NCBI GenBank assembly: GCA_902625885.1
Contig: CACODE010000003.1
Coordinates: forward strand, 1 to 64,000
Length of the DNA stretch: 64,000 bases
DNA from: an uncultured Candidatus Poseidoniales archaeon
Lineage (GTDB): Archaea > Thermoplasmatota > Poseidoniia > Poseidoniales > Poseidoniaceae
Direction: 5' to 3'
Under the pieces are notes generated by a model. It was not told the DNA's origin, made no database searches, and saw only the letters and a list, made by a program, of their open reading frames with translations. Both the position numbers and the translations under genes were made by a program. Positions 4,963 to 54,226 of the stretch are shown here, piece by piece (position 1 is the first letter of the stretch; each line of letters starts with the position of its first letter).

Positions 4963-6015
4963 TCATCTGCATTTTTGGTAAGACGCGTTGAATATTCTTC
5001 GCGCCAATTTGTAGTCGAGACGGCGTCTTCTAACGCCTTTTTTCGTGTTCCCCATGAAAGCGGTCAGGAACACATCGTGCGTGGCGGACCTGTACGCCTC
5101 TATGCTTTGATTGGCTTCCGAAATGACCTTATCGAGCAGTTCATCGTCAATATCAACCTCGATGTAGGTAAGATGCCGACTGCTCACCTTGATCTTGTCC
5201 CGAGCGTATCCCAACGAGTCGCCTCTGCAAAATTTGATCCTCATGGAATTGTCCGTTTTCGTGCCGTCAACGGCCCTGTAGCCGAGAATCCCCTCCGGGG
5301 CATTGAAGCGCATCGCTATGGCGTTGTTCGCCGTGCTGGCTGTTTGGTCATGGAGGGTTCGTATCTGACCGTATGTCCCCAAAATCGTATCGTTTTTCCA
5401 GACTTGTTGAATCGGGTTCGAGGTTGAGAAAATCATGACGCAAACAGGGTGTTCCGTGTCAGAAAAAGGATTCTCCTCCAGGATGGTTATCGAATGCAGT
5501 TTTTCTCGCCAGTGCGGGAGTTCATTCAAGTCCTGAATTACGGACTCCGGCACGATCCAGACCGATTCATGATATGTTTGAATGGTCTGTTCAATCGCGA
5601 GTTTGAACAGGTCGTCCAGTACACGAAACAAGCCCTCTGAAATTTCCGGGAAACGGTTTGTGTCGAAATAGTGCCTCGCCGCCGAACCGAGACGTTTGGC
5701 TGAGTTTTTCGCCATGTAGGGTGGATTGGTCAGGACGACGGCGTTGGCATGATGCACCACGTTGAGGAGGGAATCGTTTGGTACCCCCCATCCGTTGCTT
5801 TGGCAGATTTGTGGGTCAATGTCGTGGCCGTGAATCTCAAATCCCATCTCTTCGGCCAACGCAAGCAGATGGCCGTCTCCAGCAAAGGGATCAACGCATA
5901 CTGAGTGACGCTCCAACAACGATTCAAGATGGCGCTTGATGTGAGGTCGTAGCCAAACATCGTGGCGAGTAAAAAATTGCCCGAGGCGACGTTTGGTCGT
6001 GTCCACTGTGGGCAC
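4963..6015 (-). CDS. DNA N6-adenine methyltransferase-like protein
   Basis: RRLGQFFTRHDVWLRPHI, VCVDPFAGDGHLL (motif I), LTNPPYM (motif IV); likely GTG start at 6015 overlapping the upstream TAG. Confidence 0.8.
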   Translation of the reverse strand: MPTVDTTKRRLGQFFTRHDVWLRPHIKRHLESLLERHSVCVDPFAGDGHLLALAEEMGFEIHGHDIDPQICQSNGWGVPNDSLLNVVHHANAVVLTNPPYMAKNSAKRLGSAARHYFDTNRFPEISEGLFRVLDDLFKLAIEQTIQTYHESVWIVPESVIQDLNELPHWREKLHSITILEENPFSDTEHPVCVMIFSTSNPIQQVWKNDTILGTYGQIRTLHDQTASTANNAIAMRFNAPEGILGYRAVDGTKTDNSMRIKFCRGDSLGYARDKIKVSSRHLTYIEVDIDDELLDKVISEANQSIEAYRSATHDVFLTAFMGNTKKGVRRRRLDYKLARRIFNASYQKCR

Positions 6016-6605
6016 TACCTTTCTCGATGAGCGCGGCAAACGGCGACAAAGTTTTCGAACATCTCTTTGCCAAATTCCGAGTCGTTCACCTCGGGATGGA
6101 ACTGGAGCCCGAACCTGTCGCCGGCCTCGTTTTCCATGCCCTGAACCTTGCACGACGGGCTACCCGCTGTGATGAAGAAGCCTTCTGGAACCACGTGGAC
6201 TTCATCGTTGTGCGACTCCCAAACCGTCTGGTTTGCATTTGTTCCAGCAAAGATGGTCCCGCCGCCCTCAACGAGTTCAATTTCCATGGCGCCAAATTCG
6301 GGTTCGGGTGATTCGCGAGCGTCGCCACCGTAGTGGCGGGCCATGAACTGGTGACCAGCACAGATGCCCAAGATGGGGATGTCCAGCGCAAGGTAGGCCG
6401 CGCAATTCCCCAGTTCTCCGGTCAGACCAACGCGTGCTGCACCCCCGGAAAGAATCAGGCCGTCCAACTCGCGAAGTTCCGAAACGGGCGTGGTGTTGTC
6501 GATGATCTGCGTGTCCACCTTGAGGTAGCGCAGCATGCGCCACTCGCGATGCGTCCACTGGCCTCCGTTATCAACGACATCAATAACCAGCGGTTTGTCC
6601 GACAT
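6015..6605 (-). CDS. guaA: GMP synthase glutaminase subunit A
   Basis: ILGICAGHQFMARHYGG nucleophile elbow, LQFHPEV His-Glu motif; stand-alone glutaminase as in archaea. Confidence 0.9.
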   Translation of the reverse strand: MSDKPLVIDVVDNGGQWTHREWRMLRYLKVDTQIIDNTTPVSELRELDGLILSGGAARVGLTGELGNCAAYLALDIPILGICAGHQFMARHYGGDARESPEPEFGAMEIELVEGGGTIFAGTNANQTVWESHNDEVHVVPEGFFITAGSPSCKVQGMENEAGDRFGLQFHPEVNDSEFGKEMFENFVAVCRAHRER

Positions 6606-6687
6606 GCCCTCACTCCCTTGCAGGTGGTAGAGGAACGAACTTCAACATGCCGATGAATTCCACCGTGGCAGAACTGAGAGAAGTTGT

Positions 6688-6810
6688 TCAGCGGTGGTGA
6701 ACGGTGATGGTGCCGCAAACTCGACACCACACCTTGATGCCGTCTTTTCGTGGAGGGATGCCTGCGATGTTGATGTTTGTCCCGCAGGTACACTTCACGA
6801 TGTTCTCCAT
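6688..6810 (-). CDS. Small zinc-ribbon protein (MENIVKCTCGTNINIAGIPPRKDGIKVWCRVCGTITVHHR)
   Basis: 40-aa frame with CxC/CxxC metal-binding pattern between two genes; boundary approximate by about 1 nt. Confidence 0.55.
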   Translation of the reverse strand: MENIVKCTCGTNINIAGIPPRKDGIKVWCRVCGTITVHHR

Positions 6811-6849
6811 GCGGCACCCTAAACATAGGTGCTTCATCAAATCAACGCC

Positions 6850-40134: not shown

Positions 40135-40385
40135 GCGACCTTTACAGCAAGAAGCCGATGTTGGCTCATTGACTGGTATTGTTTGAGCAATGGGTAGCGC
40201 CTGACAAGACCCACTGCGAGCCCTCTGATGAGGTCAAAACGAATCAGTGGGTTTGTGCATTGACCCTTGCGAACAGTTGGAACTTATCCATTCAGTTGCT
40301 GATTAAATCTAGACTTCAGATAAATTACGTTCGGGAAAAAGTAAATGATTGTCTACTTGGGGAGATAATTAGAATTGGCGATTTT

Positions 40386-41354
40386 ATGAATACCAGATTT
40401 CTGATTTTGCTACTCATATTCTCGTCAACCATGAGCGGATGTATCTTAGAAGAACAGGAAAAAAGTGGAGGAGAATTTTCTCCTACTGAAGAAATTCAAG
40501 ATGAGGCTCTTCAATTCTCGGAACATTGTATAGAATACGATGGTCTTGAGAGATGCTGGTTGCTGCTTGTTCCTACGATTGTAAATGAATCTATTTCTGT
40601 ACCCTTACTCATTGATATACACGGTGGCGGCGATGATATGTATGAGCAACGTTGGACATCTGACTTCGCAAACATTTCGATGGAACAGGGATTCATCGTT
40701 GCATATCCGCAAGGGCACAATAATTTTTGGAATATGGGTGGTCCAACTCCATGTCTAAACGAACTTCTCTGTTCAGATGAGGATGATGTTGGGTTCATAT
40801 TACAGATGCTTGACACCATCATGCAAAATCACTCCATCGACCAAACAAGGATTTACTCGACTGGTTGGTCAAACGGGTGTGGTATGACGCAGAGATTAGC
40901 AGTGCAGACCAGTGAGGTTTTCGCAGCCGTGGGGTGCATGGCAATGTACAAATTAGCAGAGGTTTCTCCTGAATATTCACCCATTCCATTTATGGAAGTC
41001 CACGGGCTTCTAGATGAGATTGTTTACTATGCCACAACGGCACCTACAGCACCTATCTTCGGACCGGAAAATGGAGCAGTTCAGAACCTAGAGAGTTGGG
41101 CTGACCTCAATGGATGCCAGGGTTCAATTCCTGAGATTATTGTCAGTGAGGTGGATTATGACATTCGTGGATACACAGACTGTGAGAATGAAACTCAAGT
41201 TATGCTGGTGACACTTTTCTTCGCCGCTCATAACCCCTATGAGCATGATGATCCCGTCGCACATCCGGGAAGAGGATGGGCAAATCCGACAGGAGTTCCC
41301 TCCTCAACTATCGTATGGGATTTCGTGAGTCAATTCTCTAAAACGAACGAATGA
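40386..41354 (+). CDS. PHB-depolymerase/feruloyl-esterase-like alpha/beta hydrolase lipoprotein
   Basis: Lipobox STMSGC; LLIDIHGGGDDMYEQ; STGWSNGCGMTQRLA; VHGLLDEIV. Confidence 0.82.
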   Translation: MNTRFLILLLIFSSTMSGCILEEQEKSGGEFSPTEEIQDEALQFSEHCIEYDGLERCWLLLVPTIVNESISVPLLIDIHGGGDDMYEQRWTSDFANISMEQGFIVAYPQGHNNFWNMGGPTPCLNELLCSDEDDVGFILQMLDTIMQNHSIDQTRIYSTGWSNGCGMTQRLAVQTSEVFAAVGCMAMYKLAEVSPEYSPIPFMEVHGLLDEIVYYATTAPTAPIFGPENGAVQNLESWADLNGCQGSIPEIIVSEVDYDIRGYTDCENETQVMLVTLFFAAHNPYEHDDPVAHPGRGWANPTGVPSSTIVWDFVSQFSKTNE

Positions 41355-41458: not shown

Positions 41459-42457
41459 ATGCGCAAGATATTATCGCTTTTTGTGATTTTTTTATTCGTA
41501 TCTACGGCGCCAGGGTGCCTCAAAGATCCTCTAGATCAACCCTCTGAGGACGGAGGTCAAATGTCAGGCAATGAATCATCTTGGGCACATGGTCTGAGCA
41601 GTAGTTGTATCTCCTATGACGAAATGGAAAGATGTTGGGACCTTTACGCACCTGCAACTATTGACCCACAATATTGCTTGGAAAACTCTTGCCCACTGGT
41701 TTTTGATTTTCATGGATTTAATTCCAATCCTGAGATACAAAAAACACTCTCTGGGTTCGATGATTTATCTGATGAGTTTGGGTTCGTTGTAGTCTATCCT
41801 TTGGGATACGAAAACTCCTGGAACTCGGGATGGTGTTGCGGTGAAGCAAGTGAGAACGGTGTAGATGATTTAGGATTCATATTAGAGATTTCTAAACAAG
41901 TTGAAGATATTTGGAATACAGATAATGCACGACGATATTTGACTGGTTATTCGAATGGATGTTCAATGGTTCAAAAGTTAGCAAATGAAGTTAGCCAGTT
42001 TTTCGCAGCTGCAGGTTGTATGGCGCATTATCTGTTAGAGGCTCCATCTCCTAATTATTCACCCACACCGATAATAGAGGTTCATGGAATTCATGACCCA
42101 GTAATTCCATACGGTGAAACATACGGTTTTTCACCCTGGATTCAACATTCATGTGATGGAGATTGCCAGGGCGCAATCAGCAATATGGAAACATGGGCGG
42201 AGATGAATGGTTGCTCAGGATCAACTCCTGACACAGAAATTTTTGAGTATGATTATTCAATTATAGGATATACCCAATGTGAAAACAATGCTAGCGTGCA
42301 ATTGTTCACCCTAAACCTCGCACATCATAATCCGTACAAAAAGGATTATCCAAGCAACAATCTATGGTCGCCGGTCACTTCTAATGGAAACCCTACAGGT
42401 ATTGATTCTTCGTTGATAGTTTGGGAATTCCTAAGTCAATATTCAAAGGAGTTGTAA
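41459..42457 (+). CDS. PHB-depolymerase/feruloyl-esterase-like alpha/beta hydrolase lipoprotein, tandem paralogue
   Basis: Lipobox STAPGC; LVFDFHGFNSNPE; LTGYSNGCSMVQKLA; VHGIHDPVIPYG. Confidence 0.82.
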   Translation: MRKILSLFVIFLFVSTAPGCLKDPLDQPSEDGGQMSGNESSWAHGLSSSCISYDEMERCWDLYAPATIDPQYCLENSCPLVFDFHGFNSNPEIQKTLSGFDDLSDEFGFVVVYPLGYENSWNSGWCCGEASENGVDDLGFILEISKQVEDIWNTDNARRYLTGYSNGCSMVQKLANEVSQFFAAAGCMAHYLLEAPSPNYSPTPIIEVHGIHDPVIPYGETYGFSPWIQHSCDGDCQGAISNMETWAEMNGCSGSTPDTEIFEYDYSIIGYTQCENNASVQLFTLNLAHHNPYKKDYPSNNLWSPVTSNGNPTGIDSSLIVWEFLSQYSKEL

Positions 42458-43961: not shown

Positions 43962-44348
43962 ATGGGCGGAGCCGTGCCAATTCTGACCCTCGTGAAAGCG
44001 AAAGAAATAGCGGAACGGCCTTCTCTGTCGCCACCTCAACAACAATTGGAAACAACGCTAACGATGTTGTGTTCCTTTCTGAGCGTTGACGATTTCATCT
44101 CGTTCCTGGCTTCGCAGCCGTTCAACGAGTTTGCTCGAAAAGAAGACCCTTGGGTGGTGTTCGAGTTGGGCCTGTACCAGGATCACACCAAGACGTTGCA
44201 ACTCATTCCTTCGAAAGCGTCACTGATGCTGTTAGATTCAAGCCACACGGGTGCTTTTGAAAATCATGTTTGGGAAGGCGATGCCAACGAAGCGATGGGT
44301 CGGGCCGTCAAGCACTGGATCGCTGTTGTCCTTGCGGCTGGTCAGTAG
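43962..44348 (+). CDS. Hypothetical protein
   Basis: About 128-aa ORF from internal ATG at 43962. Confidence 0.5.
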   Translation: MGGAVPILTLVKAKEIAERPSLSPPQQQLETTLTMLCSFLSVDDFISFLASQPFNEFARKEDPWVVFELGLYQDHTKTLQLIPSKASLMLLDSSHTGAFENHVWEGDANEAMGRAVKHWIAVVLAAGQ

Positions 44349-45151
44349 AAAATAGAGCAGCAGGTCAAGGAGCCATCCGCTGCACGGATTTCGCTCATGT
44401 CAATTTCCACCGTCTCCAAGCCACGGGCATGAAGTTCTCGCTCAACCCCAGGGTAGCCTTTGGCGATGAGCACTTTGCCGTTTGGCAGACCGATGGTGTT
44501 GCACCCGTACACCTCTTCTCCGGGAAGCCAAACGATTTCACAACCCTCGGGCAGCTCACCAAAATCTGAGGGAGAAAGGTAACCTTCTGGTGCGAGGATG
44601 ATGCTGTCCGTGGGTGTTGAGGAGATGCTGGTGAGGTGGAGGGCGTGGTCGGGAATGTTGATGACGCGAAGTTCGTAGCCGAAGAAATCGAGAAGGCTCC
44701 GTAAACTCGCAATGCCCAAATCGTTGGTTCGAGACGAGCGTCCAACGAAAAAGAGATCTCCGAGGCGAATGATGTCCCCGCCGTCCATACGAGCTTCGCC
44801 GCCCATCGTGCAGGTCTGTACGCCTTTCAGGGCTTCCATGAGGTATTCGGCGATGGGGGGCTGCTCGGCGACGCGCGATGGGTGTCCTGGTGTTGGTAGC
44901 AACATGTGGCCATCGATGACCACCGCTTGGTCTTCGACAAACATGCAGTCGGGATGGTTTTCGTCCGCAGCCAGGCAATGGACCTCTATGCCGTTGTCAA
45001 CAAGGGCTTGGATGTAGGCTTGCTGTTGCTGCCTGGCGAGTTCAACATCGGTAGGGCCTTGACCAAAGAAACGAGCCAGCGCATTGGTAAAGGACGAAGG
45101 AACGCTACGAACCAGCGCTCGCTTCTTTTGGTCCACCCGCACGGAGGCCAT
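44342..45151 (-). CDS. Dimethylarginine dimethylaminohydrolase/amidinotransferase-superfamily protein
   Basis: DCMFVEDQAVVIDGHMLLP, EARMDGGDIIRLGDLFFVGRSSRTN, EIRAADGSLTCCSIFY C-terminal catalytic Cys region. Confidence 0.85.
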   Translation of the reverse strand: MASVRVDQKKRALVRSVPSSFTNALARFFGQGPTDVELARQQQQAYIQALVDNGIEVHCLAADENHPDCMFVEDQAVVIDGHMLLPTPGHPSRVAEQPPIAEYLMEALKGVQTCTMGGEARMDGGDIIRLGDLFFVGRSSRTNDLGIASLRSLLDFFGYELRVINIPDHALHLTSISSTPTDSIILAPEGYLSPSDFGELPEGCEIVWLPGEEVYGCNTIGLPNGKVLIAKGYPGVERELHARGLETVEIDMSEIRAADGSLTCCSIFY

Positions 45152-45297
45152 GATAACAACCGCGGGCGCCCTTCCTTTAACCCCTTCCCTTTTTACGGAA
45201 GTGAATTTCCTGAGTCCGGAAATATCATTTCGCAGTGCAGCGTTTCGACGTGTTTGATTTGGGGCGCTAGCGCGCCCCCACAAACCGCTGTTCTGGC

Positions 45298-47337
45298 TCA
45301 CTCGTCTTCGTCAGTGGTGTAGGTTGGTGGGTACAGGTATCGCGGGTCGCGATCCTCGTCCATCTGCACAACATACACGCCAGAAACCATCTCGGATATG
45401 AACAGGAAACCGCGAGGATCGTACTGCAAGCCCCAATCGAACGGAATCATGCACGAAGCCCAACAGTCGGCCATGTCGTAACCCAACTTCTCCTTCGGGT
45501 CGTCAATCCATGTGGGTCCAGCAGGCAGGTAGTAGCCCATCGTCTTGGTCTCAGCGAATCCTTCGATCGCTGGGAAGCCAATTTCAGGAGCCGGTACACC
45601 GTCCACCCATTCGGTCTCGCTCCAAATCATGCTGTGGTCGGTTACCCAGTTTCCAGCGTGGTAATGGGTCCAGTACACATGGCCGTTGGTGCCGGTGTCG
45701 CCGTTGTGAGGGCTGTAGATGTAGCCACCCGGGATGTAGTGGTGCTCGTGCACACTGCCGTCGGGAAGGATGCTTGTTCCGGGCAATTTCCACTTGCTCA
45801 GCAAGAAGGGTTTGGCTGGGTCGGTGGTATCGATGGTCCAAATGTAGCCTGTGTGATTGGTGTTGGTGCCGTACTCCGGTGCAATCATGGTGAGGTGCCG
45901 CCAGTTGATGCCGTAGACAGCATCGTCCGGGCCGGTCCCGCACTCGTCATCCCAAGTGTCCATCGGGTCCGTTTCTGCTGCACCGTTGCACAGGAGATGG
46001 TCGTAAGGAATGGCGTAGTGAATCCATCCGTTGCCGTTGAGGGCTCCGGTGCTTCCGCCCCATTCTTCGGGCGTCATGTTGGCGTGGCCGCCACCGCCAG
46101 GGCCGTACCAGCCGTCGTCTGCGCTCGGGCAGCCAAGCCATCGGCCAACCTCGTTGTCTTGTGGCCACGAGATGCCTTCTGGATCGGGGACAGGTGGCGG
46201 GTTGGAGACGTCGACGATGCGAAGGCCTGCGTCCCAGTAAGAGATGTAGAGCAACGCTTGCCCCGTAATGGGGTGAATGTGGAACACGTTGTCATGGTTG
46301 AACAGCGAACCTCCACAGGTGGTTTCGGGTTCAGGGGAATAGCCGCCCCAGCGTATGATTTCGCGACTGGTGTTCTGGTCCTCGTCGTTGATGTCAGGGC
46401 GCCACGACTCGAACCCGAGCGGGACGTAGAACACTTGTGTACCCTTGTAGAACACGCCCGAATCGCCCTCTACCATTTCGGGGTAGGGGTCTGCACCGTA
46501 GAGGAAAAGGTGGCATTCTTCCATGGCGTAGATGGGTGGGGCGTTTTCCCAATCGCAGTCAACGTGAAGGTCTTGATTATGGAACCCTGCCGGAGGATTG
46601 TTCCATTCAGCCACCTTGATCGGGTAATTCTTGTCGGACACGTCAATGACATCCAACCGATTGGCGCCGCTGTTGGCGTCGTCGTCTTGTGGAATGGGGT
46701 CAAGGTCGCTGTTGGTTAGCTCGTGATTGACCAGAACCCAATTGTTGTCGGGCGTGACCTTGATGTCGATCATGCGTCCGATTTCGGCGTAATACGTCGA
46801 GAGCAAGGTGATGTTGTTGGGCTTTGAGATGTCGAGAATTTCAAACTGGTTGTACGACGAGACATAAGCGTAGCAACCACCGGTGCCGTCGGGATGTTTC
46901 ACGCAGTCTTCGTTGAAGTTGCCCTCGATTGAAATCTCTGAGGAGTCCCCGGGCGTCGGTCCGACGTTCTTGTACTCTGGATAGCACGGCCTTCCCGCTA
47001 CGTTATCCAACTCGGCTGGGGGAGCAACGTTGCCGTCACAGTTGAGGTTGTGATAGTCGATGAGAAGCATGTTGTCGGTTTGGAGGCGGTGAGCCAAGAG
47101 GTCGCTGTGGCTGTGATTTTCATCCTCGATTTCCACGACAGGATCGATCCACTTGGAGGTTTGGCTGCCTTCGTTTTCATCACCATCGTCGTCCAAACTC
47201 ATGTAGGCGAGACCGGAAATCACGCTGATGGTGAGTAGGGAAACAAGAGCGATGACGATGACTTTGTCAGCGGCTCGCTCGTCGTCTCTTAATCTCCTCG
47301 TTTGCATGGGGGATGCGTTGTTGGAGTTGTATTTCAA
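45298..47337 (-). CDS. N-terminally anchored LVIVD-type beta-propeller protein (copy 1)
   Basis: Repeats such as FEILDISKPNNITLLSTYY, LDVIDVSDKNYPIKVAEW, LYISYWDAGLRIVDVSNP, YIWTIDTTDPAKPFLLSKWKLPG. Confidence 0.8.
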   Translation of the reverse strand: MKYNSNNASPMQTRRLRDDERAADKVIVIALVSLLTISVISGLAYMSLDDDGDENEGSQTSKWIDPVVEIEDENHSHSDLLAHRLQTDNMLLIDYHNLNCDGNVAPPAELDNVAGRPCYPEYKNVGPTPGDSSEISIEGNFNEDCVKHPDGTGGCYAYVSSYNQFEILDISKPNNITLLSTYYAEIGRMIDIKVTPDNNWVLVNHELTNSDLDPIPQDDDANSGANRLDVIDVSDKNYPIKVAEWNNPPAGFHNQDLHVDCDWENAPPIYAMEECHLFLYGADPYPEMVEGDSGVFYKGTQVFYVPLGFESWRPDINDEDQNTSREIIRWGGYSPEPETTCGGSLFNHDNVFHIHPITGQALLYISYWDAGLRIVDVSNPPPVPDPEGISWPQDNEVGRWLGCPSADDGWYGPGGGGHANMTPEEWGGSTGALNGNGWIHYAIPYDHLLCNGAAETDPMDTWDDECGTGPDDAVYGINWRHLTMIAPEYGTNTNHTGYIWTIDTTDPAKPFLLSKWKLPGTSILPDGSVHEHHYIPGGYIYSPHNGDTGTNGHVYWTHYHAGNWVTDHSMIWSETEWVDGVPAPEIGFPAIEGFAETKTMGYYLPAGPTWIDDPKEKLGYDMADCWASCMIPFDWGLQYDPRGFLFISEMVSGVYVVQMDEDRDPRYLYPPTYTTDEDE

Positions 47338-47402
47338 GCCAAGGGTGCATTGTATTCAAATGTTGATTTGTTTTATGTAGGCCCCATGATTAGGGCCGTT
47401 CA

Positions 47403-48035
47403 ATGAAGCGTTTTACAGGCCTTATGTGTCTCCTTTTTGTTTCATCGCTGCTTTCAACAGGGGCCGTCCAAGCTCATTCCGCCGACACCTTCACGGTGGT
47501 CATCAAGCAAAGTGGGTTGACCCCGAGTTCATCCCAAATCACCTACAACGATTCCGTTGTTTGGCACAACACCGACAGTCGAGAAAACATCACCCATCGC
47601 ATTGTGTTCGACTTTGATGGCGATGGTCTGTACAACGGCACCGACGATTGGGACTCGGGTGAACTGGTGGCAGAATGCAACTCAACCGCTGGCGAGAACG
47701 GCAGCGAAGAGGACGACGGTGCACCTTGCAACGTCACGTTCTTGGTATGGTTCAACGGTACTTGGGGCGTTGGCGAATACCGCTATCAGGACATGCTTTC
47801 GGACGGAACGGTCCTCAACGGCACCGTTGTGGTGGTGGAAGACGTTCACGAAGAAAATTCAAGTGCACCAGAAATCGGCAGCACGTTCGGTTCCTTTGAC
47901 AGCCGTCAGGGCGACGATGTTGTTGAAGAGGAAGATGAAGGTGACGATGCCAAGCGGTTGTTCTTGATGATCGGTGCAGGTTCGGGTTTGGGCGCTGTCG
48001 CCCTGTTGGTGTTGCTCGTCATCCGCCGCTCCTGA
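47403..48035 (+). CDS. Cupredoxin-like membrane-anchored protein with EF-hand-type loop (copy 1)
   Basis: Signal peptide; TFTVVIKQSGLTPSSSQITYNDSVVWHNTD; loop DFDGDGLYNGTD; GTVVVVEDVHEE; C-terminal TM. Confidence 0.65.
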   Translation: MKRFTGLMCLLFVSSLLSTGAVQAHSADTFTVVIKQSGLTPSSSQITYNDSVVWHNTDSRENITHRIVFDFDGDGLYNGTDDWDSGELVAECNSTAGENGSEEDDGAPCNVTFLVWFNGTWGVGEYRYQDMLSDGTVLNGTVVVVEDVHEENSSAPEIGSTFGSFDSRQGDDVVEEEDEGDDAKRLFLMIGAGSGLGAVALLVLLVIRRS

Positions 48036-48056
48036 GCCAGCTCCCTGGCGACGCTA

Positions 48057-48704
48057 TCACAAGGTGTTGAGGTAGCGCAAGTCTTCCAGGAAAAGATCGA
48101 GAATCCAGTCGTTGTCGCCCCACCAGACTCGCTGATATCCAAACCGATCAACGAGGATGGTGCCTGTCTCATGGTTCACCGTGTAATCGTCGGGGTGGTG
48201 CCGTGCGGAGGAATTGTTGGCCGTTTCTTCAATCGTTAGGCCGATACCAAAGTTCACCCAAACATCTTGCAGCGCCTTCATGGAAGGGCTCTCGGAATCG
48301 TTGCTCATCGAAGTCAGGTGAATCCATTCCGAGTTCGTCCCCGTTTTCCACTCGTGCAAGACCGACACGTTATCCCGCCAAGGATCGACCGTGATGGTCA
48401 GGAACGTTGTTTTGTTGAGTTCGTCTTCAGAAAGTTGCGATCTTACCCAGTCCATGTTGTACGTGACAATGGGGCAGATGTCAATGCAGTTGGTGAAAAG
48501 AAACGCAATGGCAAGGGTCGTGTTGGCAGCTTCCTCAGAATACGTCCAAGATTCGCCTTCACTACTCGTCAACGTAAAGTCGTTAACCCGCACGTAATCA
48601 ATTTCTTCTCCATGAGGGGCCCACCGGTCGACCTCTCCGGGAGAAAAACATCCGGCGAGCAGCATCGAAGCGCACATCAACAACGACAGAATTGGGGTTC
48701 TCAT
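48057..48704 (-). CDS. SCO1/SenC-family lipoprotein
   Basis: MLLAGCFSPGE lipobox; FLFTNCIDICPIVT (CxxxCP); TVDPWRDNVSVLHEW. Confidence 0.85.
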   Translation of the reverse strand: MRTPILSLLMCASMLLAGCFSPGEVDRWAPHGEEIDYVRVNDFTLTSSEGESWTYSEEAANTTLAIAFLFTNCIDICPIVTYNMDWVRSQLSEDELNKTTFLTITVDPWRDNVSVLHEWKTGTNSEWIHLTSMSNDSESPSMKALQDVWVNFGIGLTIEETANNSSARHHPDDYTVNHETGTILVDRFGYQRVWWGDNDWILDLFLEDLRYLNTL

Positions 48705-48713
48705 TTCTTCACC

Positions 48714-50492
48714 TCAAAGACGGTAGGGGAGATCGATGTCCAACTGGACAAGATAGAGCCCTGTTGAAATACATGACGCATAGGTGATGCCGTCGTGGTG
48801 CTCAACAGCCCATAAGTACGGCACCCAGCCGAAATTGTAGAAACTGGAATCCAATGCTGTCCCGTCCGCACCGTGCGGAAGGTAGTACGCCACAGTGGAC
48901 TCTTCGTGAACGGCGACCCTGTCGTCGGGATTGGCAGGGTCGACCAGTGTTTCAATGTCAACAATCCACAAACCGGCGTGGTAATGAGAGATGTAGAGAC
49001 GGCCGTCCCAACCGCCGCCGTGGCTCTGATCGGTTTCATCGGTGGTCTCAAAGTACGTGCTGTCGAGGTTGTGCGGGGAAAACAGGAGCCATTCCTCTGC
49101 ATTTTGGTGAGCTTCGCAGTCCTCACCATAGCAATGGTCTTCAGCGTAAGGAATTTCCCAATCTCGAATCAATTTTGGTTTGAACTTGAACTGCCCGTCT
49201 TCCATCACGTAATCGGTCGTGTCGAGCAAGTAGATGATGCCGGTGCCGACGCTCGTGCTCAAGACTTCCACAGCGGCGGTGACCAGGTGAACGGGCTCGT
49301 CAGAATAACCAACGTGGGACAAATCGACCATGGTGGGAAACGGTTCGGCGTAATGGATGTACGAAGCGCGGCCGCCGTTTTCGTTACCGGTCGGTCCGCT
49401 GTCGGGCTGGCCGTCTCCGTCCAAATCAAGGAAATCCATCCAGAGACCGACCTCTGGTGCTCGCCACCTGCACATCAGCGGATTACCAAATCCAGTGCGG
49501 CAGGTCACCGCATGGGTGAGGTAGGTGGATTCTGAATTGACGGGGTGAGGTACATCGGTCACGTCACCGATACGAAGGCCTGCTTCCCAATAACTGCCGT
49601 AAACAAACGTGCGCCCGTACCTCGGATCGTTGGCGTCTTCACCCGGCCAAGTCTGGACCGTCATGTCGTGAATGTAAATCCAACCGCCCATCGTGGTCTC
49701 CCACGAGACTTCGTACTCGCCAACCTTAACGATGGTGTGACCAAGACCTGAGGCGGGCACCCCGGGCAAGTTCCGTGCAGCTGAGCCGATGAGGTTGAGG
49801 TGGGCGATGGTCACACCACCGCAAGCCTCGCCGATGGCATCGTTGCAGTTGTCGTAATCAGGGTTGGCCACGAACATGTACCACTCGCCGTCGATCATGT
49901 GGGTGTAGAGGTTGTGAGGGCCGGTCGGGTGATCGGCGTCGTACCAGGAATCAACCCAGGTCGGGTTGGTTTTGTCCGTGACGTCGATGAGGGTGACCGT
50001 TACTTGAGCAGGGTCGTTCCATTCCCCAACGTTGGGGTCGGCGTTGCCGGGGTCGACAAGTTGGTTCTGCTGGATGATGTATTCTCGCCCGAAAGCTTCC
50101 AGATATTTCACGTCCAAAACCTGGGTGTTGGGGTCGTTGTAAACGCCCGTGACGGTGGTGTTGGTCGGGTCGGTGACGTTCACGATATGCATGTCGTTCC
50201 ACCCGGCAAGGTATGCATAGGTCTCGCCATCGGGTGTGGTGGCCACTTGAACTTCAGCGTTGCCTGTCGTGGTGAGTGGGTTGAAATCCAACAGTTCCAT
50301 GTTGTCCGTGCTAAACATGTGCTGGCTGGCGTTCGAATGGTCGTGATCTCCCCCTTGAATCAACGGGTCATCCGCTTGAAAGGTCACTTGTTCTTGGACG
50401 GAGGATTGGATGTCGTCGCCAAGGACGAGAACCAGCGCTGAGGTAAGAAAAAGCACCGTAAAGATTGCAAGAAGCAGTTCTTTTCCGCCCAT
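48714..50492 (-). CDS. N-terminally anchored LVIVD-type beta-propeller protein (copy 2)
   Basis: AYLAGWNDMHIVNVTDPTNTTVTGVYNDP, VTLIDVTDKTNPTWVDSW, YGSYWEAGLRIGDVTD, LYISHYHAGLWIVDIETL. Confidence 0.8.
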   Translation of the reverse strand: MGGKELLLAIFTVLFLTSALVLVLGDDIQSSVQEQVTFQADDPLIQGGDHDHSNASQHMFSTDNMELLDFNPLTTTGNAEVQVATTPDGETYAYLAGWNDMHIVNVTDPTNTTVTGVYNDPNTQVLDVKYLEAFGREYIIQQNQLVDPGNADPNVGEWNDPAQVTVTLIDVTDKTNPTWVDSWYDADHPTGPHNLYTHMIDGEWYMFVANPDYDNCNDAIGEACGGVTIAHLNLIGSAARNLPGVPASGLGHTIVKVGEYEVSWETTMGGWIYIHDMTVQTWPGEDANDPRYGRTFVYGSYWEAGLRIGDVTDVPHPVNSESTYLTHAVTCRTGFGNPLMCRWRAPEVGLWMDFLDLDGDGQPDSGPTGNENGGRASYIHYAEPFPTMVDLSHVGYSDEPVHLVTAAVEVLSTSVGTGIIYLLDTTDYVMEDGQFKFKPKLIRDWEIPYAEDHCYGEDCEAHQNAEEWLLFSPHNLDSTYFETTDETDQSHGGGWDGRLYISHYHAGLWIVDIETLVDPANPDDRVAVHEESTVAYYLPHGADGTALDSSFYNFGWVPYLWAVEHHDGITYASCISTGLYLVQLDIDLPYRL

Positions 50493-50549
50493 AGACGCCT
50501 CAACCCACCAGTCCGTTTGGTCTTTATGATTTGGTGCTTCCGCTCAATC

Positions 50550-51194
50550 ATGGCAGCGCAACGGACCATCGCCGTCATCGCTGCCCTGTTGATGGTGACG
50601 GTTTTGCTACCGGCGTCGGGCGCCCATGAACAAAAAACACTGACCGTTATCATGACTGGAGATGGTGTTGTTTCTGGAAACATCACCGACTCAGCCTTCG
50701 TCCAAGGCAACGCCCTTTGGTTCCGCATGGAAGACAGTTCCGATAACGCCAGCATGGTGGTTCGATTTGACAGCAACATGGACGGGTCGTTCAACGCCTC
50801 GGAAGACAACATGTCAACCGAACTCGTGAACGAATGCGCCCTCGATGAGAACGGCTCGCTGGTGGATGAGGATTGTGCCGTCTCGTGGACCTACGCTTTT
50901 GACATGAATGCAGAAATTGGAACCTATCTCTTTTGGGTTGACCGAACGCAGAACGGCACCGAAACCACATGGAACCACTCCATCATCGTTCACGAAGACA
51001 TCCACGAAGAGGACGGTCCATCACCCGGAGATTGCTTCGGCGCAGGATGTCCAGAGGAAGAAACGGAAGACGACGAGTCTGCTTCATCGGTGTTGAGCGG
51101 TGTTGACCGGACGTACGTGCTGGTGTTGGGTGCGGTTTCGCTCATTGGCATGGCGGCCATGCTGAACTCGATTAGCAAAGAAAAACAGCGCTAG
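50550..51194 (+). CDS. Cupredoxin-like membrane-anchored protein with EF-hand-type loop (copy 2)
   Basis: Signal peptide; KTLTVIMTGDGVVSGNITDSAFVQGNALWFRMED; loop DSNMDGSFNASE; HSIIVHEDIHEEDGPSP; C-terminal TM. Confidence 0.65.
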   Translation: MAAQRTIAVIAALLMVTVLLPASGAHEQKTLTVIMTGDGVVSGNITDSAFVQGNALWFRMEDSSDNASMVVRFDSNMDGSFNASEDNMSTELVNECALDENGSLVDEDCAVSWTYAFDMNAEIGTYLFWVDRTQNGTETTWNHSIIVHEDIHEEDGPSPGDCFGAGCPEEETEDDESASSVLSGVDRTYVLVLGAVSLIGMAAMLNSISKEKQR

Positions 51195-53266: not shown

Positions 53267-54226
53267 ATGCAGCCCGTTGCAAAGGCATTGCTTGGGTGTC
53301 TTCTCCTGCTGATGTTGCCGCTTGCCGGTTGCACGGCAGCGCCAGTGAAGGAATCGGTCAACGATGCTGAAACACTCGTTGAGATTGAAGACCCATGCAT
53401 GCTGGCCACACAATCCTCACTGCAATCGCTGGTGAGTATTCAGGTCGACGGAGAGGACCGGTTCTTCCGCCTGTCTGTCCCCAGCTCGACACCAGGGACA
53501 AAACTGCCAATCGTCCTCGCTTTCCACGGTGGGGGAGATGCTGAAGAGGATTTTCCGCAACAAAACCAGTTCGATCAACTCGGTGAAACTGAGAAATTCA
53601 TCATGGTCTACGTCATTGCAGACAGCGATCGAACCGCTGCAGAAGGCGATTGGTACCTCAACTCTGCAGCCACGTCCCGTGAAGACAACGACTTTTCAGA
53701 ACAGATTGTTGATGATTTGGCGCAGGTGTTCTGCATCGACGAGGACCGACTGTACGCCACGGGCTATTCTCTTGGGTCCATGTTCACCTACGAAATCGCT
53801 TGTCAGTTAAATCAGCGATTTGCGGCCGTTGCTTCCTTTGCAGGAACCATGCCGGTCAGTCCAGAATCGTGTGATTTGCTCGGAAGAATGGCCGTTCTGC
53901 ATATCCACGGGAAATTGGATTACATCATCGATTACGACGAGGACTGGGACTGGAAAGACGGAGAACACGAAGGGGTTGGTACGATGAGTAACATCCCGGG
54001 GATGATCGACTACTGGGCGGACAAATCAAACTGCCAAAACGAAAACACGCACTCGCACCTGTTTGGAGGAGACGATGTTGAGCACATCGTTCACACCGAC
54101 TGCGCCGGCGATGTTCGCATTGAACACTACGGAATGGAAGCCCAAGAGCACACCTGGCCAAACCAGGTTGACGGCACCGACACGTACGAATTGATTTGGA
54201 ATTTCTTAAGCGATTTCACCAATTGA
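53267..54226 (+). CDS. PHB-depolymerase/LpqC-like alpha/beta hydrolase lipoprotein (third family member)
   Basis: LPLAGCTAAP lipobox; IVLAFHGGGDAEEDF; YATGYSLGSMFTYEIAC; HIHGKLDYIIDY. Confidence 0.83.
   Translation: MQPVAKALLGCLLLLMLPLAGCTAAPVKESVNDAETLVEIEDPCMLATQSSLQSLVSIQVDGEDRFFRLSVPSSTPGTKLPIVLAFHGGGDAEEDFPQQNQFDQLGETEKFIMVYVIADSDRTAAEGDWYLNSAATSREDNDFSEQIVDDLAQVFCIDEDRLYATGYSLGSMFTYEIACQLNQRFAAVASFAGTMPVSPESCDLLGRMAVLHIHGKLDYIIDYDEDWDWKDGEHEGVGTMSNIPGMIDYWADKSNCQNENTHSHLFGGDDVEHIVHTDCAGDVRIEHYGMEAQEHTWPNQVDGTDTYELIWNFLSDFTN

Follow-up and report, generated by a model that had tools for sequence, protein, structure and literature searches.

Genes at the locus

The window, by which we mean the whole 64,000-nucleotide stretch of DNA that was analysed, comes from a genome of 1.66 Mb that is 70% complete and whose nearest relatives are Poseidoniaceae, MGIIa. 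Five neighbouring genes are of interest here. PropA (45298..47337, minus strand) has an N-terminal TM segment followed by an LVIVD beta-propeller ectodomain, as indicated by its ORF, its match to PF08309 and its place in a PropA clade with 100% support. Its true start is probably the ATG at 47307, since M11 of the listed ORF is the conserved start. Divergent from it lies CupA (47403..48035, plus strand), a small protein with a signal peptide, a mature N-terminal His, a pair of cysteines, a D-x-H motif and a C-terminal TM segment. According to the alignment of its relatives the predicted mature residue 1 is His25 (...AVQA/HSADT; codon at 47475..47477, plus strand), the disulfide-type pair is C92 and C109, and the D-x-H motif is D147-x-H149.

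The middle gene (48057..48704, minus strand) encodes a SCO1/SenC lipoprotein with the lipobox LAGC19, the motif C73xxxC77P and H178, recognised by PF02630 and its conserved ligands. It is followed by PropB (48714..50492, minus strand), again an N-terminal TM segment with an LVIVD beta-propeller ectodomain, which contains nine near-invariant histidines. One of these, H193, is a putative axial-ring residue on the basis of its conservation in 134 proteins (codon at 49914..49916, minus strand). CupB (50517..51194, plus strand) has the same parts as CupA: in the listed ORF its His1 is residue 37, its cysteines are 107 and 120, and its D-x-H is D161-x-H163. The true start of CupB is likely to be the ATG at 50550, slightly inside the listed ORF.

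A sequence-only reading of this DNA had described two head-to-head pairs of a propeller and a small protein with an intact SCO1 lipoprotein between them. This arrangement is borne out by the ORFs and by Pfam, and all five ORFs are open where, and on the strands on which, that reading had placed them.

Between the divergent PropB and CupB genes lies the element CATAAAGACCAAACGGA (50512..50528, minus strand). It is unusually well conserved in relatives, and the 1.66 Mb genome holds no other copy of it when up to 2 mismatches are allowed. The element is TATA-like and is probably a bidirectional core promoter for PropB and CupB, and a regulator site within it is possible. The element varies by genus, and in another MGIIa group it reads ATAAATACAATACG. 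A bacterial promoter scan was uninformative, as expected since the host is an archaeon.

Further, three PHB-depolymerase-like secreted esterases are found near the cluster, at 40179-41354, 41459-42457 and 53267-54226 (+). A DDAH-like gene (44342-45301, minus strand), which matches the dimethylargininase family below the cut-off, is a conserved neighbour of the cluster in MGIIa.

The propellers

Both propellers match LVIVD (PF08309) above the gathering cut-off of 20.2 bits, PropA with 42 bits and PropB with 23.8 bits, and they are 24% identical to each other (E 5e-30). In a Pfam scan with E up to 1 LVIVD was the only family found, and PF05694 (SBP56) did not appear. No match to the NosZ propeller or CuA families was obtained in the Pfam and NCBIfam scans, and searches of PDB sequences with both propeller profiles and with one distant relative gave no matching chain.

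The most striking property of the propellers is their histidines. Nine of them (50, 52, 58, 193, 275, 380, 402, 474 and 505 in PropB numbering) are about 99% conserved or better across 134 full-length PropA and PropB proteins. Further, in the same 134 proteins, which include both paralogues, the PropB residues E80, D127, H193, H275, H380, H474 and W561 are each 98.5-100% identical. The putative ring was placed at the start of the innermost strand of seven blades, taken from predicted strands; these positions were chosen by eye, with conservation as part of the guide. When the seven-residue set is slid by 1 to 8 positions, at most four of the seven residues are conserved, and usually at most two. 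Several invariant histidines thus appear to ring the axis of the propeller, a lead that comes from sequence and a predicted model.

The AlphaFold model of PropB has a pLDDT of 79 and a pTM of 0.83. Its Foldseek matches are mostly propellers, while the count of seven blades comes from the predicted strands only. The top match, well ahead of the others, is PDB entry 5hrm, the phosphotriesterase of Sphingobium sp. TCM1 (E 3.2e-11), with a sequence identity of 14% and TM of 0.46-0.54.

Across the order the propeller is mostly 60-88% identical. In one locus (L113; G002 C1:212498-214282) an in-frame TGA splits PropB into two ORFs, which is either a sequencing error or a pseudogene. Outside the class, distant relatives of the propellers in other Thermoplasmatota and in haloarchaea retain several of the histidines. 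Such relatives are found at L122:4959-6473 (minus strand), at L123:3906-5300 and 5429-6826 (plus strand) and on the haloarchaeal plasmids H1, H2 and H4; those of L122 and L123 retain motifs such as HDH, HD, SPHN and HYHAG. Neither a His1 partner nor a SCO gene was seen near the distant relatives that were inspected outside the class.

The small proteins

CupA and CupB are 30% identical (E 2e-17). In 131 of 133 relatives an aligned His comes immediately after the point at which signal peptidase is predicted to cut. This point is placed by the -3/-1 residue rules: every readable row has A, G or S at position -1, and almost every row has V, A, S or T at position -3. The mature small protein would therefore begin with His. 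All 131 proteins that are aligned in the region concerned share a second His. An Asp stands two residues ahead of it in 122 of the 131; counted by alignment column, the Asp is present in 129. The remainder of the sequence drops below 30% identity. There is no conserved Met in the mature domain, and a C-terminal hydrophobic segment is found in 127 of 133.

In PfCopC, the Cu(II) ligands are His1, Asp83 and His85 (PMC7529816). The His1, Asp and His of the small proteins, with the same D-x-H spacing, would therefore make up a CopC-like site of the Cu(II) type.

For the small protein AlphaFold predicts a compact beta-sandwich plus the signal and TM helices (pLDDT 87); the D-x-H is located after the last predicted strand. 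Foldseek gave weak matches of Ig/cupredoxin type, among them laccases, auracyanin and LPMOs, with a best E of 1e-3; CopC was absent from the top 50. By sequence, the family has no match to any Pfam model: PF13473 is reached below threshold only, and CopC (PF04234) was not matched by 57 members at E 0.1. As far as sequence can tell, the small-protein family is new to the libraries searched.

The sequence-only reading had called the small proteins cupredoxin-like and had pointed out two shared cysteines. The cysteines turn out to be invariant: one is found in all 133 proteins and the other in 132, the remaining protein being unreadable at that position. The cupredoxin label does not hold, as the ligands of type-1 or CuA sites are missing and the N-terminal His and D-x-H signature is found instead. 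In particular, among the 133 proteins no conserved Met or His adjoins the conserved Cys as in a type-1 cupredoxin, and the Cys pair looks like a disulfide.

The SCO gene

The middle gene matches PF02630, SCO1-SenC, with 66.8 bits (E 2.5e-18; cut-off 22.8). The intact CxxxCP reported earlier is indeed present, with C73 and C77 in the motif FTNCIDICPIV, and C73, C77 and H178 are conserved at 95% or more in 42 orthologues. Orthologues in the sister family keep CxxxCP and V[DN]H. The clusters of that family (f2) also hold a second, larger SCO (e.g. L084:11906-13072), with CPD[IV]CL replacing CxxxCP.

In MGIIa genomes a second, longer SCO is found near COX2, about 4 kb away. In one of them (G002), this SCO is at C1:37004 and COX2 is at C1:41678, and the SCO of the cluster is found at C1:214427. 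The cluster SCO is thus probably dedicated to the cluster, and a role as general CuA chaperone only is disfavoured in MGIIa. Genomes without the cluster still hold a cox-type SCO.

Age of the duplication

In a tree of 81 propellers there is an A clade of 34 and a B clade of 47 proteins, both with 100% support, and each clade holds members from all three families (f1, f2 and f3). The duplication therefore predates the class, and a recent local duplication of the whole unit is ruled out. The identities within the pairs, 24% for the propellers and 30% for the small proteins, agree with this: they show homology, yet of an old kind that differs from a recent tandem duplication.

The tree of 72 small proteins follows the propellers to a large degree: the partner label needs 2 changes, compared with 21.9 for shuffled labels. 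The CupA partners are not a single clade in this tree, since five CupB partners with long or deep branches are placed close to them; the AU test does not reject a tree that is forced to have the CupA partners in a single clade (p 0.358). From these trees, propeller and small protein appear to have been inherited together, largely as pairs. The earlier proposal that the whole unit was duplicated thus stands for the pair, for which the trees largely agree; the SCO gene was not duplicated, and the event was ancient and nonlocal.

Distribution and gene order

Within the order, PropB occurs in 159 of 195 genomes, and 96 of 116 have the small protein. A profile of both propellers detected both paralogues in six genomes that belong to a third family of this class; beyond the class it gave weak partial matches only, in two genomes. 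The families coded f2 and f3 are probably MGIIb and MGIII.

The small protein is located divergently upstream of PropB in 76 of the 76 loci with room for it, so the divergent pair that had been proposed from the window alone is conserved. Further, in the genomes covered by the searches for both proteins, 69 of 70 with a propeller have the small protein, against none of 12 without one (Fisher p 1.6e-13), a co-occurrence that partly reflects physical linkage in incomplete assemblies. Several genomes without the system are more than 90% complete, which indicates that it is accessory.

The gene order is not constant. The SCO gene directly adjoins PropB in about half of the loci and is not adjacent in many genomes; in the genus of the window and in the next genus it comes after PropB. 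In the sister family (f2), CupB is divergent and is followed by the operon-like run PropB-PropA-CupA-SCO-SCO, so that PropA and CupA are co-directional and lie in one operon. In another MGIIa genus the divergent CupA-PropA pair is found elsewhere in the genome, while CupB, PropB and SCO stay together (L112, L114 and L116 to L118 versus L113 and L115). In f3 the small protein is paired with PropB, and PropA is apart. These varied orders indicate that the propeller and the small protein form the core and that SCO is a frequent companion. The layout in the window, with two head-to-head pairs flanking SCO, is one among several arrangements.

In some loci a paralogue of the M28 peptidase, which has diverged to about 40% identity with the one in the window, lies between SCO and the DDAH-like gene or beside PropA and CupA. 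It replaces, or adjoins, the position that PropA and CupA have in the window in L006, L012, L014 to L017, L068, L077 and L082, and this spot therefore appears to exchange genes. L082 and L049 are from MAGs labelled Verrucomicrobiales and Rhodobiaceae that have contigs of Poseidoniaceae type, and these are probably misbinned.

Comparison with known systems

Methanethiol oxidase, SBP56 (MtoX), is also a beta-propeller. Like the cluster, it is exported, and it is copper-dependent with His ligands and encoded beside SCO1/SenC (PMC5739008). The MtoX operon has SCO1-MauG, whereas no MauG was seen in the cluster, which has a His1 partner and a membrane-anchored propeller. The propellers do not belong to SBP56 by sequence, as they lack PF05694, and that family is absent from 119 genomes of the class and 147 of the phylum. 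Nor do the proteins belong to NosZ (Pfam and NCBIfam) or to CopC (Pfam) by sequence.

The small proteins resemble CopC and the X325/Bim1 histidine-brace carriers in their mature N-terminal His, internal His and Asp ligand. With CopC they share the D-x-H spacing (PMC7529816), and with Bim1 the membrane anchor. They differ from both in having an invariant Cys pair, a C-terminal TM anchor and the D-x-H after the last predicted strand, and 57 members gave no match to the CopC model of Pfam.

The Sphingobium phosphotriesterase is a propeller like PropB and its top fold match, but it is only 14% identical. This enzyme is a soluble hydrolase whose propeller has a binuclear metal centre, of Mn, on its axis, and it is not known to have a linked His1 partner. 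With the archaeal LVIVD surface proteins (PF08309) PropA and PropB share a Pfam match above the cut-off and a surface location. They differ from the LVIVD relatives inspected in their linked His1 protein and SCO.

Possible function

We give roughly an even chance to the reading that the cluster encodes a propeller metalloprotein of the cell surface, probably with copper, that is served by a His1 copper carrier and a SCO protein. PropA and PropB would be membrane-anchored extracellular propellers with a metal centre at one face of the axis, made of invariant His and acidic residues. Each would be paired with membrane-anchored CupA or CupB, whose mature His1 and D-x-H would form the CopC-like Cu(II) site and which would carry or present copper to the propeller. 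The SCO lipoprotein, with its CxxxCP and His, may supply or reduce copper for the propeller site. Once assembled, the propeller would work as a metalloprotein at the surface; the analogy with the propeller enzymes methanethiol oxidase and NosZ makes a copper oxidoreductase the most likely kind. Several points of this scheme are inferred: that cleavage falls just before His1, that the metal is copper, where the metal site lies, which way the copper is passed, and that the catalysis is redox. Among copper enzymes with a SCO of their own, the closest parallel is methanethiol oxidase, as mtoX is in an operon with SCO1/senC (PMC5739008). The copper theme itself, which the sequence-only reading had raised, is strengthened.

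The same parts could also serve copper acquisition. The His1 protein and the propeller would then scavenge Cu(II) at the surface, with a propeller that binds or docks and is no enzyme, and SCO would pass the copper on to cytochrome oxidase and halocyanins. Membrane-anchored proteins with an N-terminal His have been described as metal scavengers or carriers, namely Bim1 and the "anglerases" (PMC10952591, PMC12537917), halocyanin and plastocyanin are strongly transcribed by MGII (PMC9723583), and SCO is a CuA chaperone. However, the cox locus of MGIIa has its own SCO and genomes free of the cluster keep a cox-type SCO, the partner and the propeller are linked far more tightly to each other than either is to SCO, and the invariance of residues inside the propeller hints at a role beyond docking. 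Acquisition is therefore, in our judgement, rather improbable.

The fold of PropB raises a hydrolase as another explanation: the propeller would resemble the Sphingobium phosphotriesterase in having a binuclear Mn or Zn centre, its substrates would be marine organophosphates or other esters, and the His1 protein would be a separate metal-binding partner. The clear lead of 5hrm among the fold matches (E 3.2e-11) and the Glu and Asp that the putative ring holds besides His are in line with this. The low similarity (14% identity, TM 0.46-0.54) is not, and the SCO linkage and the CopC-like site point to copper. The ligand set of the propeller is also richer in His than that of the phosphotriesterase, and we regard a hydrolase as quite unlikely. 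Least probable, in our view, is a purely structural role, in which LVIVD propellers and Ig-like sandwiches would mediate contacts at the cell surface and His and Cys would provide stability. LVIVD repeats have been discussed for archaeal and bacterial cell-surface proteins (PMC2447325), and in its fold the small protein matches Ig/cupredoxin sandwiches of a general kind. Adhesion would hardly explain why His1 and D-x-H are invariant while the other sequence of the small protein falls below 30% identity, or why nine histidines of the propeller are invariant over class-wide divergence with SCO in the operon.

Returning to the copper metalloprotein, its most specific form would be a new extracellular copper enzyme: a propeller with an axial ring of His and acidic residues, loaded by, or in a redox relay with, a dedicated membrane-anchored His1 protein, of which two pairs have been kept since the origin of the class. 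We consider this form possible but somewhat doubtful.

Significance

Each part is already known by itself: LVIVD propellers, SCO proteins and N-terminal-His copper sites. Their fixed combination, the ancient paired duplication and the small-protein family were not described in the open-access literature searched, which is weak evidence of novelty.

Few uncultured microbes in the surface ocean are as abundant as the MGII archaea, whose use of metals and of small organic or sulfur compounds is poorly known. The cluster is present in about four fifths of the sampled genomes of the order and is thus not a minor feature. If the copper reading is true, the small proteins would be a new family of N-terminal-His metalloproteins in archaea, the propeller would be a candidate copper enzyme, and the SCO protein would apparently serve a target of its own, different from cytochrome oxidase.
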